The notes beneath the pieces are model-generated. The model saw only the letters and a list, made by a program, of their open reading frames with translations, had not been told where the DNA came from and made no database searches. From Flavobacterium channae (GTDB lineage Bacteria > Bacteroidota > Bacteroidia > Flavobacteriales > Flavobacteriaceae), in NCBI RefSeq assembly GCF_021172165.1, contig NZ_CP089096.1, forward strand, positions 868,001 to 932,000: 64,000 bases of DNA. Direction: 5' to 3'. Below are positions 4,644-64,000 of the stretch, piece after piece; positions within the stretch are counted from its first letter, which is position 1, and the number at the start of each line of letters is the position of its first letter. The position numbers and the translations under genes are program-made.

Positions 4644-4774
4644 TAACGTTTTGTGGCTTGCTCTCAGTGGCGATGAACCAACACCAAGCCATTACAAATA
4701 TAACAAAACATTCCATTCAGCAGCGGATTTTCCGCAGGAAAATCCGGAAGTAGCCATTGAAGCAAACCGCTGTT
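4644..4774. repeat. attC-like recombination site, copy A1 (131 bp)
   Basis: Begins TAACG and ends CGCTGTT. It is 131 bp and matches 63824-63954 at all but five positions. The outer arms fold: GTGGCTTGCTCTCAGTGGC (4653-4671) pairs with GCCATTGAAGCAAACCGC (4753-4770), with G-T wobbles and one bulged C. A second perfect hairpin with arms CGGATTTTCC/GGAAAATCCG (4724-4746) sits inside. On the minus strand it directly follows the stop codon of the 4789-5688 gene. This is the position and architecture of an integron attC site (R'' arm, bulged helix, R' arm), although the box sequences are not the classical ones. Confidence 0.7.
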
Positions 4775-60431: not shown

Positions 60432-61195
60432 TATTTAAAAATCATAATTAAACGTTCTGATTGATTTTTGTAGAATTTTCGCAATTTGTAATCGCCAAAA
60501 ATATCCAATAAGAAAATCCCAGCATCTTCCATTATTTGCTCAAAATCTTCTAATCGGAGTGCTTGCACTCTTTCTGTAAAATGGAATTGCTGACCTTCGT
60601 CTTCAAAAGAAATTTCTTTAAAAATGTGTCCATCTTTGTAATAACGTTTGATGTGAAAATCAATGCCATCAACCGATTTTACTTCGTCGGCAACCAAATT
60701 TTCTAAAACATAATCTGCATTCATAAAATCAATTACTGCAAAACCAGTTTCAGTTAAGCTGTTATGAATTGCTTTTATGGTTTTGTAATTATCTGCATCG
60801 TCTTCGAAATAACCAAAACTAGTGAACAAATTAAAAATTGCATCGTACTTTTCATTACAAGTTTCACGCATATCGTGAACTTTAAAATGCAATTTTTCAT
60901 TTGAAAATTTTGAAGCTTCTAGTATGCTATTTTCAGATAAATCGGCACCAGTAACGTCAAAACCTAATGAGTTAAGGTAAATAGCATGACGACCTTTTCC
61001 ACAAGCCAAATCTAGTATTTTAGCATCTTCAGGTAAATTTAAATAATGCGTTAAATTGTCCATTAACAATTGCGCTTCTTCATCATTTCGCTCTTTGTAT
61101 AAAATATGGTAATATTTAGTATCAAACCAAGATTCAAACCAGTTTGAGGTTGATTGACTATTTATTGTTGACTGTTTATTGTTGTTTTCTGACAT
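60431..61195 (-). CDS. Class I SAM-dependent methyltransferase with repeat-derived N-terminus
   Basis: 254 residues. Methyltransferase core: KILDLACGKGRHAIYLNSLG (motif I) near residue 60, GADLSENSI, YDAIFNLFTSFGYF, and FIVIDFMNADY-like segment AVIDFMNADYVLENL. Substrate unknown. The N-terminus MSENNNKQSTINSQSTSN is encoded by a dispersed repeat of the AACAATAAACAGTCAACAAT type (61151-61184), so the start region may have been created or extended by the repeat; the true core begins near WFESWFDTKYYHIL. Coupled by a one-base overlap to the ZIP gene. Confidence 0.87.
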   Translation of the reverse strand: MSENNNKQSTINSQSTSNWFESWFDTKYYHILYKERNDEEAQLLMDNLTHYLNLPEDAKILDLACGKGRHAIYLNSLGFDVTGADLSENSILEASKFSNEKLHFKVHDMRETCNEKYDAIFNLFTSFGYFEDDADNYKTIKAIHNSLTETGFAVIDFMNADYVLENLVADEVKSVDGIDFHIKRYYKDGHIFKEISFEDEGQQFHFTERVQALRLEDFEQIMEDAGIFLLDIFGDYKLRKFYKNQSERLIMIFK

Positions 61196-61234
61196 TTAAA
61201 AGAGATTGATATCTTTGAACTTGCAAATTTAATG

Positions 61235-61242
61235 TATTTTTG
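61235..61242 (+). promoter_or_regulatory. -7 element TATTTTTG for the RlmL-like gene
   Basis: Matches TAnnTTTG; TTTG at 61214-61217 lies 17 nt upstream. A minus-strand -7 candidate (TAAATTTG, 61224-61231) overlaps it and may serve the divergent methyltransferase gene. Confidence 0.5.
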
Positions 61243-61304
61243 CACAAGAATACCGTATTATCGATATTGCATTTGAATTTTGCAATTGAACTTGAATTTG
61301 AATA

Positions 61305-62465
61305 ATGGAAAATTTTAAAATGACGGCCAAAACCTTTTTTGGCTTTGAGGAAATATTAGCTAAAGAGTTACAAATGCTAGGAGCTCAACAAGTGGAAATT
61401 GGTACACGTGTTGTAAGTTTTAAAGGAGATAAAGGTTTTATGTATAAAGCCAATTTAGCTCTACGAACAGCACTAAAAATTTTAAAACCAATTAAGACTT
61501 TTAGAGCTTATAACGAAAAAACATTGTATGATGGAATCAGATCGATTGATTGGTCAGATTACCTAACAGAACACAATACATTTTTAGTTGAAACTACTTT
61601 ACATTCAGAAAATTTCAATCACAGTCAGTTTGTTGCATTAAAGACAAAAGACGCTATTGTTGATCAATTTAGAGATTTAAATGGAAAACGTCCAAGTATC
61701 GATAAAGATTTTCCAGATTTACAAATTCACGTGCATATTGACAGAGATAATGTAACAGTTTCCTTAGATTCTTCGGGAGCTTCGTTGCACCATAGAGGAT
61801 ACAGAAGTGCTACTAATATTGCCCCAATTAATGAAGTATTAGCAGCAGGAATGTTAATCATGTCAGGTTGGGATGGAAAAAGTCATTTCTTAGATCCAAT
61901 GTGTGGTTCTGGAACTATATTAGCTGAAGCCGCGATGATTGCTTGTAATATTCCGACTAACATTAATAGAAAAGAGTTTGCGTTTGAAAAATGGAACGAT
62001 TGGGATGCAGAATTATTTGATGACATTTTAGAATCGTTGTTGAAGAAAACACGCGAATTTCATTATACAATTAAAGGCTACGATAAAGCGCCAAGTGCTG
62101 TTTCTAAAGCAAAAGATAATGTTAGAAATGCCAATTTAGATGAATACATTAGTATTTCAAATGAAAACTTTTTCGATTCTAAAAAAGAAACAGAAGGTCC
62201 GTTGCATATGGTATTTAATCCACCTTATGGAGAACGTTTGGATATTGATATGGAACGTTTTTATAGAGAAATTGGCGATACATTGAAACAAAATTATTCT
62301 AATACCAATGCATGGTTCATAACAGCTAATTTAGATGCGTTGAAATATGTTGGTTTAAAACCAAGTAGAAAAATTAAACTTTTCAATGGTAAGCTAGAAG
62401 CACGTTTGGTAAAATACGAAATGTATGAAGGAAGTAAAAAAGGAAAGTATTTAAATGATAAGTAA
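61305..62465 (+). CDS. THUMP-domain RNA methyltransferase (RlmL-like)
   Basis: 386 residues. N-terminal ferredoxin-like/THUMP region (MTAKTFFGFEEILAKELQML; GDKGFMYKANLALRTALKIL) that recognises RNA, then the UPF0020 methyltransferase domain with DPMCGSGTILAEAAMIACNI and the catalytic HMVFNPPYGERLD (NPPY). Likely methylates guanine N2 in 23S rRNA, as in RlmL/K; the single domain here corresponds to RlmL (RlmK absent). Leader of a two-gene set with the small membrane protein gene. Confidence 0.92.
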   Translation: MENFKMTAKTFFGFEEILAKELQMLGAQQVEIGTRVVSFKGDKGFMYKANLALRTALKILKPIKTFRAYNEKTLYDGIRSIDWSDYLTEHNTFLVETTLHSENFNHSQFVALKTKDAIVDQFRDLNGKRPSIDKDFPDLQIHVHIDRDNVTVSLDSSGASLHHRGYRSATNIAPINEVLAAGMLIMSGWDGKSHFLDPMCGSGTILAEAAMIACNIPTNINRKEFAFEKWNDWDAELFDDILESLLKKTREFHYTIKGYDKAPSAVSKAKDNVRNANLDEYISISNENFFDSKKETEGPLHMVFNPPYGERLDIDMERFYREIGDTLKQNYSNTNAWFITANLDALKYVGLKPSRKIKLFNGKLEARLVKYEMYEGSKKGKYLNDK

Positions 62466-62517
62466 AAAGTAGAAAGTTTAAAGTAAAAAGTAATTTCAAC
62501 AATAAAACATTAATACA

Positions 62518-62751
62518 ATGAGCAAAAAGGTAAAAGCATTTTTATATAATTTATTAGGGTTTGTAATTATTTATTTACCAACGTTATATTTAGTTGATAA
62601 GTACACCCATTTAAATGGATTGTGGATTCCAATGACGGCATTTATGGTAGCATTGATTTTGGCACCAAAATTTCAAGCAATTAAAACCCACAACGGTGAA
62701 AAAATCTACATGAAGTGGTTCTTTATAAAAGGCGTTAAAGAAGTAAAATAA
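62518..62751 (+). CDS. Small conserved membrane protein
   Basis: 77 residues with two helices (AFLYNLLGFVIIYLPTLYLV; GLWIPMTAFMVALILAPKFQ) and a basic tail. Downstream of the RlmL-like gene. No family name that I can support. It ends at a TCCCGA-type terminator, beyond which the second cassette locus begins. Confidence 0.78.
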   Translation: MSKKVKAFLYNLLGFVIIYLPTLYLVDKYTHLNGLWIPMTAFMVALILAPKFQAIKTHNGEKIYMKWFFIKGVKEVK

Positions 62752-62754
62752 TAA

Positions 62755-62787
62755 AATCCCGAATGTGAGTTCGGGATTTTTTTTCTT
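62755..62787 (+). terminator. Terminator before the second cassette locus
   Basis: AAATCCCGAA/TTCGGGATTT stem with T-run, the same type as at 4575-4608, followed by the same 24-bp junction sequence. Confidence 0.85.
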
Positions 62788-62788
62788 T

Positions 62789-62812
62789 ATACTTTAAAAA
62801 TGGCGAGTAGCC
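62789..62812 (+). repeat. 24-bp junction repeat (copy 2)
   Basis: Ends AAATGGCGAGTAGCC; matches 4608-4631 with two differences and holds a TGGC-GAGTA-GCCA palindrome. See the copy 1 entry. Confidence 0.7.
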
Positions 62813-62838
62813 ATAAACAACTTTTTGAGTTTTGAGAT

Positions 62839-62994
62839 TAACGTCCCGCCGGCTTTATGAAGTGGCGGATTTTTATTACTGATGTTTACAAATATACCGA
62901 AAAGACTGAAAGAAAAAACCTCTTTCGGAGAAAGAAAAATATTCACTGACCATTACCGAAAAAAACTGAACTAAGCCATTTTATAAAACCGCTG
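62839..62994. repeat. attC-like site B (156 bp)
   Basis: Begins TAACGTCCC and ends AACCGCTG(TT). The arms GCCGGCTTTATGAAGTGGC (62848-62866) and GCCATTTTATAAAACCGC (62975-62992) pair along 18 bp with G-T wobbles and one bulged C, the same size and one-bulge layout as site A (19 against 18 nt). The inner sequence differs from site A, so arms and ends are conserved but the centre is not, as in integron attC sites. It directly follows the stop of the 63011-63781 gene on the minus strand. Confidence 0.68.
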
Positions 62995-63826
62995 TTACCA
63001 GATGTTTCTTTCATTTGTAATTTTGACTTTCGAGGGAAATATAATCTTTTAAATTTTCAAATTTTCTATCGATACTAATTAACATCATAAAGAAATTAGT
63101 GATTGTGAAAAACAGAACTATAGAACTCCATTCTTTACCATCACTTAAATCGTATTTATTTCTCTTAAATTCCATTTCTGCATTCGGACCGCCATGAATA
63201 TATGAAGATAAAGTATTGTATTTTCCAAGTAAAATAGGAATTAACTCCTTGTTCACTTTGTTGAAATGATTGTCTGGTAATGGATTTTTGATTAAAAAAT
63301 TTTGTATTTTTTTTATATCAAATTGTTTGCCTTCTCGATTAAAATTGTCGTATTCAGTTTGAGTCAAATCATCAAAATCAGGAGATAATTTCTTTTTTAA
63401 ATTTTCAAAAGTAGCATTATTAGCTTCGCCTGTTAGCATTCCGTCGACACCAAGTTGATACATGTCTTTTTTAAAGCATTCAGTAACAAAATAATCGGTA
63501 TAATATTTTTTTCCAACGTCATCATTATTATCAAGGTGAAAGCGATAAAAAATATAATAGCTTACGAGAAAATGTTCAACAATAGTTCTTAAAAGACAAT
63601 TTGCTGTATAATTAGATTTTATATTTTGTATGTCAGATTGAAGAGCTTTAATCTTTTCAATAAAATTTAATGTTGCAGATAATACTTTTGGGTATTTTGA
63701 ATTATTTATATAATCCTCTAAATTTTCGATTCCATCTAGTTGTTTTTCTACAATTATGATATGTTTTTCTGTAATCATCATTAGGAAGATTGGTTTGTCG
63801 TGCAGTTTTTTTGAAATATCTGGTAA
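62842..63826 (-). mobile_element. Integron-like single-gene cassette, locus 2
   Basis: On the minus strand: TTACCAGAT, leader, ORF, TGA, 7 nt, ATCTGGTAAC, then site B. The boundary 10-mers GTTACCAGAT (62994-63003 on plus) and ATCTGGTAAC (63818-63827 on plus) are perfect inverted repeats private to this cassette. The neighbouring site A copy lies directly to its right. Confidence 0.6.
63011..63781 (-). CDS. Cassette-borne protein of unknown function (DUF5677-like resemblance)
   Basis: 256 residues (start could be either of two adjacent Met codons). Mostly helical, no signal peptide: CLLRTIVEHFLVSYYIFYRF near residue 64 and LLGKYNTLSSYIHGGPNAEM near 190 resemble the R-x2-E-H...Y-x3-HG pattern of DUF5677-like proteins. 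One hydrophobic segment near the C-terminus (SSIVLFFTITNFFMMLISID) could be a membrane or buried helix. It fills the locus 2 cassette; the stop is 7 nt from the boundary repeat. Function unknown. Confidence 0.7.
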   Translation of the reverse strand: MMITEKHIIIVEKQLDGIENLEDYINNSKYPKVLSATLNFIEKIKALQSDIQNIKSNYTANCLLRTIVEHFLVSYYIFYRFHLDNNDDVGKKYYTDYFVTECFKKDMYQLGVDGMLTGEANNATFENLKKKLSPDFDDLTQTEYDNFNREGKQFDIKKIQNFLIKNPLPDNHFNKVNKELIPILLGKYNTLSSYIHGGPNAEMEFKRNKYDLSDGKEWSSIVLFFTITNFFMMLISIDRKFENLKDYISLESQNYK

Positions 63827-63954
63827 CGTTCTGTGGCTTGCTCTCAGTGGCGTTGCACCAACACCAAGCCATTACAAATATAACAAAACATTCCATTCAG
63901 CAGAGGATTTTCCGTAGGAAAATCCGGAAGTAGCCATTGAAGCAAACCGCTGTT
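63824..63954. repeat. attC-like recombination site, copy A2 (131 bp)
   Basis: Near-identical to 4644-4774 (five substitutions, 96%). Arms GTGGCTTGCTCTCAGTGGC (63833-63851) and GCCATTGAAGCAAACCGC (63933-63950); internal hairpin GGATTTTCC/GGAAAATCC (63905-63925). On the minus strand it should close the next cassette, whose gene would lie to the right of the window. Confidence 0.72.
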
Positions 63955-63958
63955 ATCT

Positions 63959-64000
63959 CTATAATAATTCCGCAAGTACCCTTTTGCACTTAAAGTACTG
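63959..64000 (-). CDS. Possible 3' end of the next cassette gene (runs off window)
   Basis: On the minus strand the bases read QYFKCKRVLAELL then TAG, ending at 63959 inside the expected 10-bp boundary (TAGAGATAAC). Fourteen codons are too few to prove coding. The entry is kept because the cassette model predicts a stop here. Confidence 0.3.
   Translation of the reverse strand, partial: QYFKCKRVLAELL

Follow-up and report, generated by a model that had tools for sequence, protein, structure and literature searches.

The locus examined here raises the question of whether a minus-strand gene of Flavobacterium channae, flanked by two structured DNA sites, is a cassette of an integron-like system and, if it is, which recombinase the sites would serve. 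The window, that is the whole stretch of 64,000 nucleotides that was analysed, corresponds to C1:868001-932000 of a single-contig 2.81-Mb genome. The features needed for the argument are given below, in window coordinates except where C1 is named.

4644..4774, minus strand: third attC-like site of the window, solitary and far from any array (sequence match)
61305..62790, plus strand: conserved chromosomal flank (ORFs, inverted repeat, DNA of relatives)
61305-62465, plus strand: RlmL-like methyltransferase gene, part of the flank
62518-62751, plus strand: 77-aa ORF, part of the flank
62744-62789, plus strand: terminator-like inverted repeat, part of the flank
62839..62996, minus strand: attC-like site 1, distal end of the cassette (sequence; cassette with matching R boxes; BLAST relatives elsewhere in the genome)
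62994..63003, minus strand: private R'' box of the window cassette, GTTACCAGAT on the plus and ATCTGGTAAC on the minus strand (inverted repeat)
63011..63781, minus strand: window cassette gene, 256 aa (ORF list)
63818..63827, minus strand: private R' box of the window cassette, ATCTGGTAAC on the plus and GTTACCAGAT on the minus strand (inverted repeat)
63824..63954, minus strand: attC-like site 2 (near copies elsewhere in the genome)
63955..64000 and on to C1:~935000, no strand assigned: repeated mobile element that begins here and encodes a 405-aa tyrosine recombinase (same junction at C1:1615278 and 1722004)
C1:975435-976520, minus strand: platform A recombinase ORF, 361 aa, conserved part 347 aa (genome reading)
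C1:1681287-1682327, plus strand: platform B recombinase, 88% identical to that of platform A (genome reading)

Most of what the original prediction said of the two sites holds. Both begin with TAACG, at 62839 and 63824, and both end in CGCTGTT, at 63954 for site 2; the end of site 1 had been placed at 62994, which is the G of the G|TT junction, and lies at 62996. The perfect 10-bp inverted repeat said to bracket the gene is present, the two private boxes being exact reverse complements, and the stop of the gene does lie 7 nt from it. The arms pair over about 18-20 positions, in keeping with the 18 bp or so that had been claimed, but with two or three mismatches or wobbles in addition to the single bulged base. 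When site 1 is read in integron orientation, it consists of R'' CTGGTAAC, a 1-nt spacer, an imperfect stem in which position 15 after AAC is A.C, a variable loop, a 5-nt spacer and GTT. In 150-nt pieces, single-strand folding of site 2 beats that of shuffles (z -2.32 and -2.74), and that of site 1 does not (z -0.84 and -1.17). The TAACG..CGCTGTT pattern occurs twice in the window, where 0.11 was expected, and at 105-135 nt it gives 13 matches in the whole genome against 4 for a reversed control; BLAST of the 1,249-base stretch against its own genome returned 22 matches, its own place included. An Rfam search of 61000-64000 gave three sub-threshold matches, none of them relevant. The cassette protein matches DUF5677 weakly (22.9 bits, cut-off 27.1) and has eight relatives with E <= 0.001 among 5.8 billion proteins, itself included. 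It was also seen that 62752-62835, the terminator and the sequence behind it, has further copies, 81% identical, at C1:872577 and 1723704, next to or close to other sites.

Near copies of site 2 lie mostly at C1 0.96-0.99 Mb and 1.59-1.72 Mb, and the genome holds two full platforms, each with a tyrosine recombinase gene, an attI-like point roughly 100 nt behind it (the GTT being about 94 and 103 nt from the stop) and then sites. The recombinase that the original prediction proposed to look for beside an array is thus present at the head of both. In platform A, same-strand genes with intervening sites run down to 961.03 kb and include 14 supported sites and the attI-like point, a site being called supported when its R box equals that of a neighbour in at least 6 of 7 positions; in platform B, 10 supported sites are spread over 1.683-1.699 Mb. 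The pair in the window shares its strand with platform A, stands 43 kb from the recombinase of that platform, and is an outlier rather than the start of a cassette array, as had been supposed; the strand of the system has likewise to be corrected, since gene, sites and platform A recombinase agree in reading on the minus strand of the window. A 4.2-kb repeat (95%) at C1:1593158-1597356 and 1700147-1704296 has at its end one half of an attC-like site, located behind a gene.

Whether neighbouring sites share private boxes was examined with sites found by AAC, paired arms and GTT only, at 45-230 nt (a minimum of 70 nt misses most of the short Rufibacter sites), the R boxes being compared afterwards, 7 nt after the GTT of one site against 7 nt before the AAC of the next. 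The chance of a random pair at 6 of 7 is 22/16384, which non-neighbouring sites of the same arrays exceed (about 3-4%), so that the non-neighbour rate is the fairer background. In the two arrays of F. channae, neighbours agreed at 6 or more of 7 positions in 11 of 18 and 9 of 10 cases, the best of 20,000 shuffles being 7 each; these arrays together with the downstream sides of an 80-locus set of recombinase relatives gave 48/74 neighbours against 26/602 non-neighbours. The survey was then carried to the 20 best-scoring single-contig genomes of the same family besides its own, chosen without looking at arrays and read at one place each, 20 kb either side of the recombinase. Downstream neighbours matched in 71/141 (top scan) and 135/194 (bottom scan) cases, non-neighbours in 45/1772 and 90/3022, and upstream neighbours in 6/23 and 3/24, all of the last in G196 and G221. 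Supported downstream pairs were found in 15 of the 20 genomes, 13 of which have at least seven supported sites; the other two, G021 and G124, have one such pair only, a number attainable by chance. The five genomes with zero supported downstream pairs (G122, G130, G196, G221 and G235), of which G196 and G221 have their pairs upstream, are a counterpoint to the reading preferred below. As a positive control, ten canonical IntI loci of the phylum were read in the same way: three were clear (11/15, 8/14 and 10/10), two weak (3/4 and 4/7) and five had at most one pair per strand, so the test misses real integrons too. The private-box logic first suggested for the window gene, in which the leading bases of a cassette are complementary to an arm of its own site, is general across these arrays, and their cassettes are bounded, as in integrons, by attC-like sites that have AAC/GTT as their core and carry a private R box.

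Evidence on where cassettes end comes from duplications. In the compared regions of the F. channae genome there are eight repeated pairs of at least 220 bp, of which three are cassettes (720 bp at 100%, 1,112 bp at 99.7% and about 400 bp at 92.6%), and in all three the match starts and stops exactly at AAC|G, the predicted crossover. This is the check for clean G|TT junctions that had been proposed, made here within one genome. The remaining five repeats are pieces of the mobile element or the 4.2-kb repeat, and one of them, the copy pair 931824 / 1722126, also ends at AACGTTA. Cassette contents follow the integron pattern of mostly one gene per cassette in one direction: 142 of the 149 cassette ORFs of at least 40 aa are co-oriented with the recombinase, the 159 supported cassettes have a median body of 689 bp, and the longest ORF takes up a median 91% of the body in co-oriented cassettes. 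Families named in array A include MepB-like, erythromycin-esterase-like, glyoxalase and DMP19, as predictions of function from family names only, and PADLOC matched one of seven cassette proteins. Because the recombinase gene is co-directional with the cassettes, read-through from it into them would be possible.

An attI-like point beside the integrase gene, as integrons have, was found in most of the arrays. In 9 of the 15 array genomes, a GTT matching the R'' of the first cassette lies 26-205 nt behind the recombinase stop, and in G100 the site finder took the attI-like point itself, 47 nt behind the stop, as a site; in the other five, no such point was found within 205 nt of the stop. Several of these points follow a near-perfect palindrome, as judged by eye.

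The recombinase itself differs from the integrases of known integrons. Its best NCBIfam match is NF040815 ('site-specific tyrosine recombinase/integron integrase'; 223.1 bits, cut-off 220), its score against TIGR02249 is 200.3 bits, below the cut-off of 265, and its best solved-structure matches are XerC-like and XerA. Alignment with the IntI4 structure 2a3v leaves residues 181-246 unmatched. The spacing from box I to (L)RH has a median of 87 residues in 32 new rows, compared with 129 in IntI (7 of the 15 IntI rows, those in which the motifs could be located) and with 92 in XerC and 93 in XerD (one row); the insert of about 42 residues that makes up the I2 region of IntI is absent, and the enzyme is not an IntI-type integrase. 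Phage-integrase and SAM-like core domains match all 15 aligned members. Over the N-terminal 70 or so residues no Pfam family exceeded its cut-off, and the one PDB match there is a designed repeat protein, which looks spurious; a stretch of about this length (..RWS....W/FHLP..) occurs in most of the new recombinases. The nearest named record is from Flavobacterium sp. UBA7663 (L092, 98% identical), which was excluded from protein work because its frame is broken. In an 80-row tree built by a quick method with SH-aLRT support only, a clade with a support of 100 unites the 15 IntI rows with a single Calditrichia row, and the 32 new rows are placed elsewhere, distributed over several branches (4 changes of label). 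A wider group, also at 100, takes in IntI, the new rows and 13 other relatives and is distinct from XerC and XerD. Branching inside this group is unresolved, so that loss and ancestral absence of the insert both fit.

The sites, too, depart from known attC sites. By one method, a bulge on the R''-L'' arm is present in 43/48 canonical sites, 10/165 family sites and 0/24 of the sites in F. channae, and on the other arm in 5/48, 53/165 and 6/24; the extrahelical base expected of integron sites on the R''-L'' arm is thus mostly missing. The position table is restricted to sites whose arms pair in an ungapped register (115 of 130 distinct family sites and 17 of 21 own sites), and a canonical table was dropped as a control because the bulge breaks that register (7 of 35 distinct sites usable). 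Among the family sites, positions 4-9 and 12-13, counted from the R box, pair in 90-99%, with several pair types at positions 5, 6, 9, 12 and 13. An A.C mismatch stands at position 15 in 90/115 family and 15/17 own sites and at position 10 in 81/115 family sites, and what is A.C on the top strand is a T.G wobble on the bottom strand. The bottom strand pairs better in 96/102 family sites from the top scan and in 65/66 from the bottom scan only. In F. channae the bottom strand is the better paired in about half of the supported sites and the top strand in several; the advantage is not clear there because T.G at position 6, present in 13/17 own sites, acts the opposite way. It had also been predicted that the classical boxes do not fit, and GTTRRRY is indeed present as the R' box in only 7/168 family sites; this says little, because for canonical IntI arrays from this phylum the fit is just 11/32. 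The differences that count are the extrahelical base, mostly missing, and the missing IntI insert. A promoter motif, TANNTTTG, occurs on the gene strand in 14/24 own sites and on the other strand in 1/24. The idea of a promoter inside each attC fails in the family set, with 7 against 15 of 168, and was dropped.

The window gene is probably an outlying cassette of an integron lineage that would run on a tyrosine recombinase lacking I2. As the sequence shows, behind the recombinase gene come an attI-like point and then an array of cassettes, most of them with one gene and oriented like the recombinase. Each cassette is bounded at G|TT, and its two ends usually have one private R box in common. 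With recombinase-headed arrays, a general R-box rule and breaks at G|TT, the original prediction of integron-like cassettes with an unrecognised attC class in Flavobacteriia is borne out. The recombinase would cut at AAC/GTT, cassettes would be excised as circles in which the two R boxes are joined, and circles would be inserted at the attI-like point behind the recombinase's own gene. Less surely, the attC would act as one folded strand, with strand choice perhaps coming from the asymmetry of A.C (top) and T.G (bottom) in place of extrahelical bases. That all this belongs to a widespread lineage which recombines single-stranded sites with neither I2 nor extrahelical bases, taking its polarity from A.C/T.G, and which is either a pre-I2 descendant or a parallel invention, is a more tentative proposal, to which we give slightly less than an even chance. 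The platform can be regarded as an integron in architecture and logic, and since it fails two of the defining features of known integrons that were tested, it is not filed as an IntI integron.

An unlikely alternative keeps the same platform and recombinase and supposes that the AAC/GTT sites are used double-stranded, as by Xer, the hairpin being a by-product of inverted binding boxes with no strand choice. It would suit an enzyme without I2 whose best family and structure matches are Xer-like, the near-perfect palindromes of several attI-like points, and the want of a clear strand preference among the sites of F. channae. It does not readily account for a long stem that is kept beyond the R boxes with changing pairs, for a one-sided A.C mismatch kept at position 15, or for better pairing of the bottom strand in 161 of 168 family sites (66 of these 168 from the bottom scan only).

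The distribution of enzyme and sites bears on which recombinase is at work. At E <= 1e-60 the recombinase is matched in 143 of 249 family genomes (20 of which were examined for arrays, with 15 positive) and in 109 of 199 genus genomes, mostly once per genome, with some matches interrupted by stops. In draft genomes many matches, as judged by eye, are only a few kb away from the end of a contig, which is what repeated sites nearby would lead one to expect. The strict site pattern occurs in 79/199 genus genomes, with 0 control matches among those listed, and is more frequent with the recombinase (58/109 genomes, 285 sites) than without a match to it (21/90 genomes, 65 sites; Fisher p 2e-5 for genomes). 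Sites in genomes without a recombinase match look like integrase-less clusters. The 21 genomes of this kind, and the presence of both XerC and XerD in F. channae, are what speaks for host XerC/XerD as the true users of the sites, as in Xer-dependent mobile elements, with the neighbouring recombinase incidental; this is very improbable, given that in one genome both recombinase copies stand at the head of an array and have an attI-like point, and that arrays lie 3' of the recombinase in 15/20 genomes.

Orthologous loci were read by eye in the five best-matching genomes, the window's own included. DNA of the RlmL-like gene region is matched in 61/61 genus genomes, and no site follows the 77-aa ORF in G555 (85% identical), G563 (80%) or the more distant G570; G544 (83%) has different cassettes at the locus, again with matching private boxes. 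Fixation of gene and sites in all relatives, which the original prediction had named as counting against it, was not what was found: of the three closest loci two are site-free and the third holds other cassettes. The array of G544 (L263, C1:902327-906858) belongs to a genome in which the recombinase is not matched at E <= 1e-60. A 6.8-kb piece of array A has matches in 27/199 genus genomes, mostly single sites of 120-200 bp, and in five genomes one array gene was matched without its site, so that these matches give no cross-species test of whole cassettes. Sites that are better conserved between species than the intervening genes, together with near-identical copies that are dispersed and in some cases isolated, would also be seen if the sites were structured repeats of MITE or REP type near genes and had no part in cassette recombination. 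Such a view has hardly any probability left, because private R boxes are shared between neighbours and not between other sites, duplicated units stop precisely at the crossover, and the arrays have a recombinase at their head.

Of 296 genomes from the phylum, taken in the GTDB sense, 84 carry a canonical IntI that scores above the TIGR02249 cut-off, and among the matches listed all but one are outside the class of the window, so that integrons as such are not new to the phylum and it is the insert-less kind that appears new. Ordinary integrase-less clusters (CALIN) served in trans by one of these canonical enzymes would have the same architecture as integron arrays, and are the least probable reading of all, as F. 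channae has no TIGR02249 match at E <= 1e-55 and the sites mostly lack the canonical extrahelical base. When arrays outside Bacteroidota were sought in 80 loci, 9 had at least two supported pairs on one strand, all 9 labelled Bacteroidota or one of its groups; many of the 80 are short contigs. In L130 the supported pairs come before the recombinase. A Bacteroidetes contig with a more distant insert-less recombinase (L132) has an array too, with 4/4 neighbouring pairs matched, and this kind of cassette platform may be wider than the recombinase family studied.

The integron-like platform proposed here is most like the sedentary chromosomal integrons, with which it shares a tyrosine recombinase gene, an adjoining attI-like point, co-oriented and mostly one-gene cassettes, the AAC/GTT crossover, an R box inverted at the cassette ends and unequal arm spacers. 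It differs in its recombinase, which has no IntI insert and is placed outside the IntI clade, in its attC sites, which are mostly without the R''-L'' bulge and have conserved A.C mismatches, and in its arrays, which lie 3' of the recombinase gene. Treponema chromosomal integrons also have a co-directional integrase, according to an excerpt of the source (PMC3607928), but are described as intI integrons, and the recombinase here is not IntI. Known Xer enzymes resolve chromosome dimers. XerA and XerC-like recombinases are the best NCBIfam and solved-structure matches of the new recombinase, which differs from them in heading a cassette array and in its extra N-terminal stretch of about 70 residues. 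An integron-like subgroup of simple tyrosine recombinases has been reported in which the insertion is not fully conserved; the accessible part of that report calls the insertion essential for integron function and gives no arrays for insert-less members (PMC8138268). I2 is described, in passages of one source, as needed for cassette capture and absent from any other protein, with intermediates lacking (PMC7790495), and the domain is also treated in PMC4792948. Extrahelical bases have been stated to direct strand choice, and attC x attC recombination by known integrases to fail when they are missing (excerpt of PMC2727003).

For Bacteroidetes, the text available of PMC9024848 gives only In0 from earlier work and, with IntegronFinder 2.0, one complete integron in Bacteroidetes proper, in Salinibacter. 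Elsewhere, in passages of the sources, Bacteroidota are placed among the integron-bearing phyla (PMC8618304, PMC9668308), intI is reported from the Bacteroidetes/Chlorobi group with the intI patch as criterion (PMC2426708), taxon-specific attC models are named with none for Bacteroidota (PMC8352920), and IntegronFinder found none in a Tenacibaculum (PMC10013915). No description of such a platform was found in the open-licence PMC literature, preprints excluded, represented mostly by titles and the beginnings of abstracts. Cassette platforms of this family are common, their recombinase has no I2-like insert and their sites mostly have no extrahelical bases, so that living enzymes are on hand with which to test how integrons, and strand choice, arose. 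The sites around the window gene belong to a gene-collecting system of integron-like build that is widespread in one large bacterial family and that seems to use an enzyme of another kind, with sites marked differently.

The mobile element that begins directly behind site 2 adjoins an attC-like site in three places, as if it used the site as its attachment point. Two of its copies share the whole attC-like site, and one shares only the last ~28 nt.
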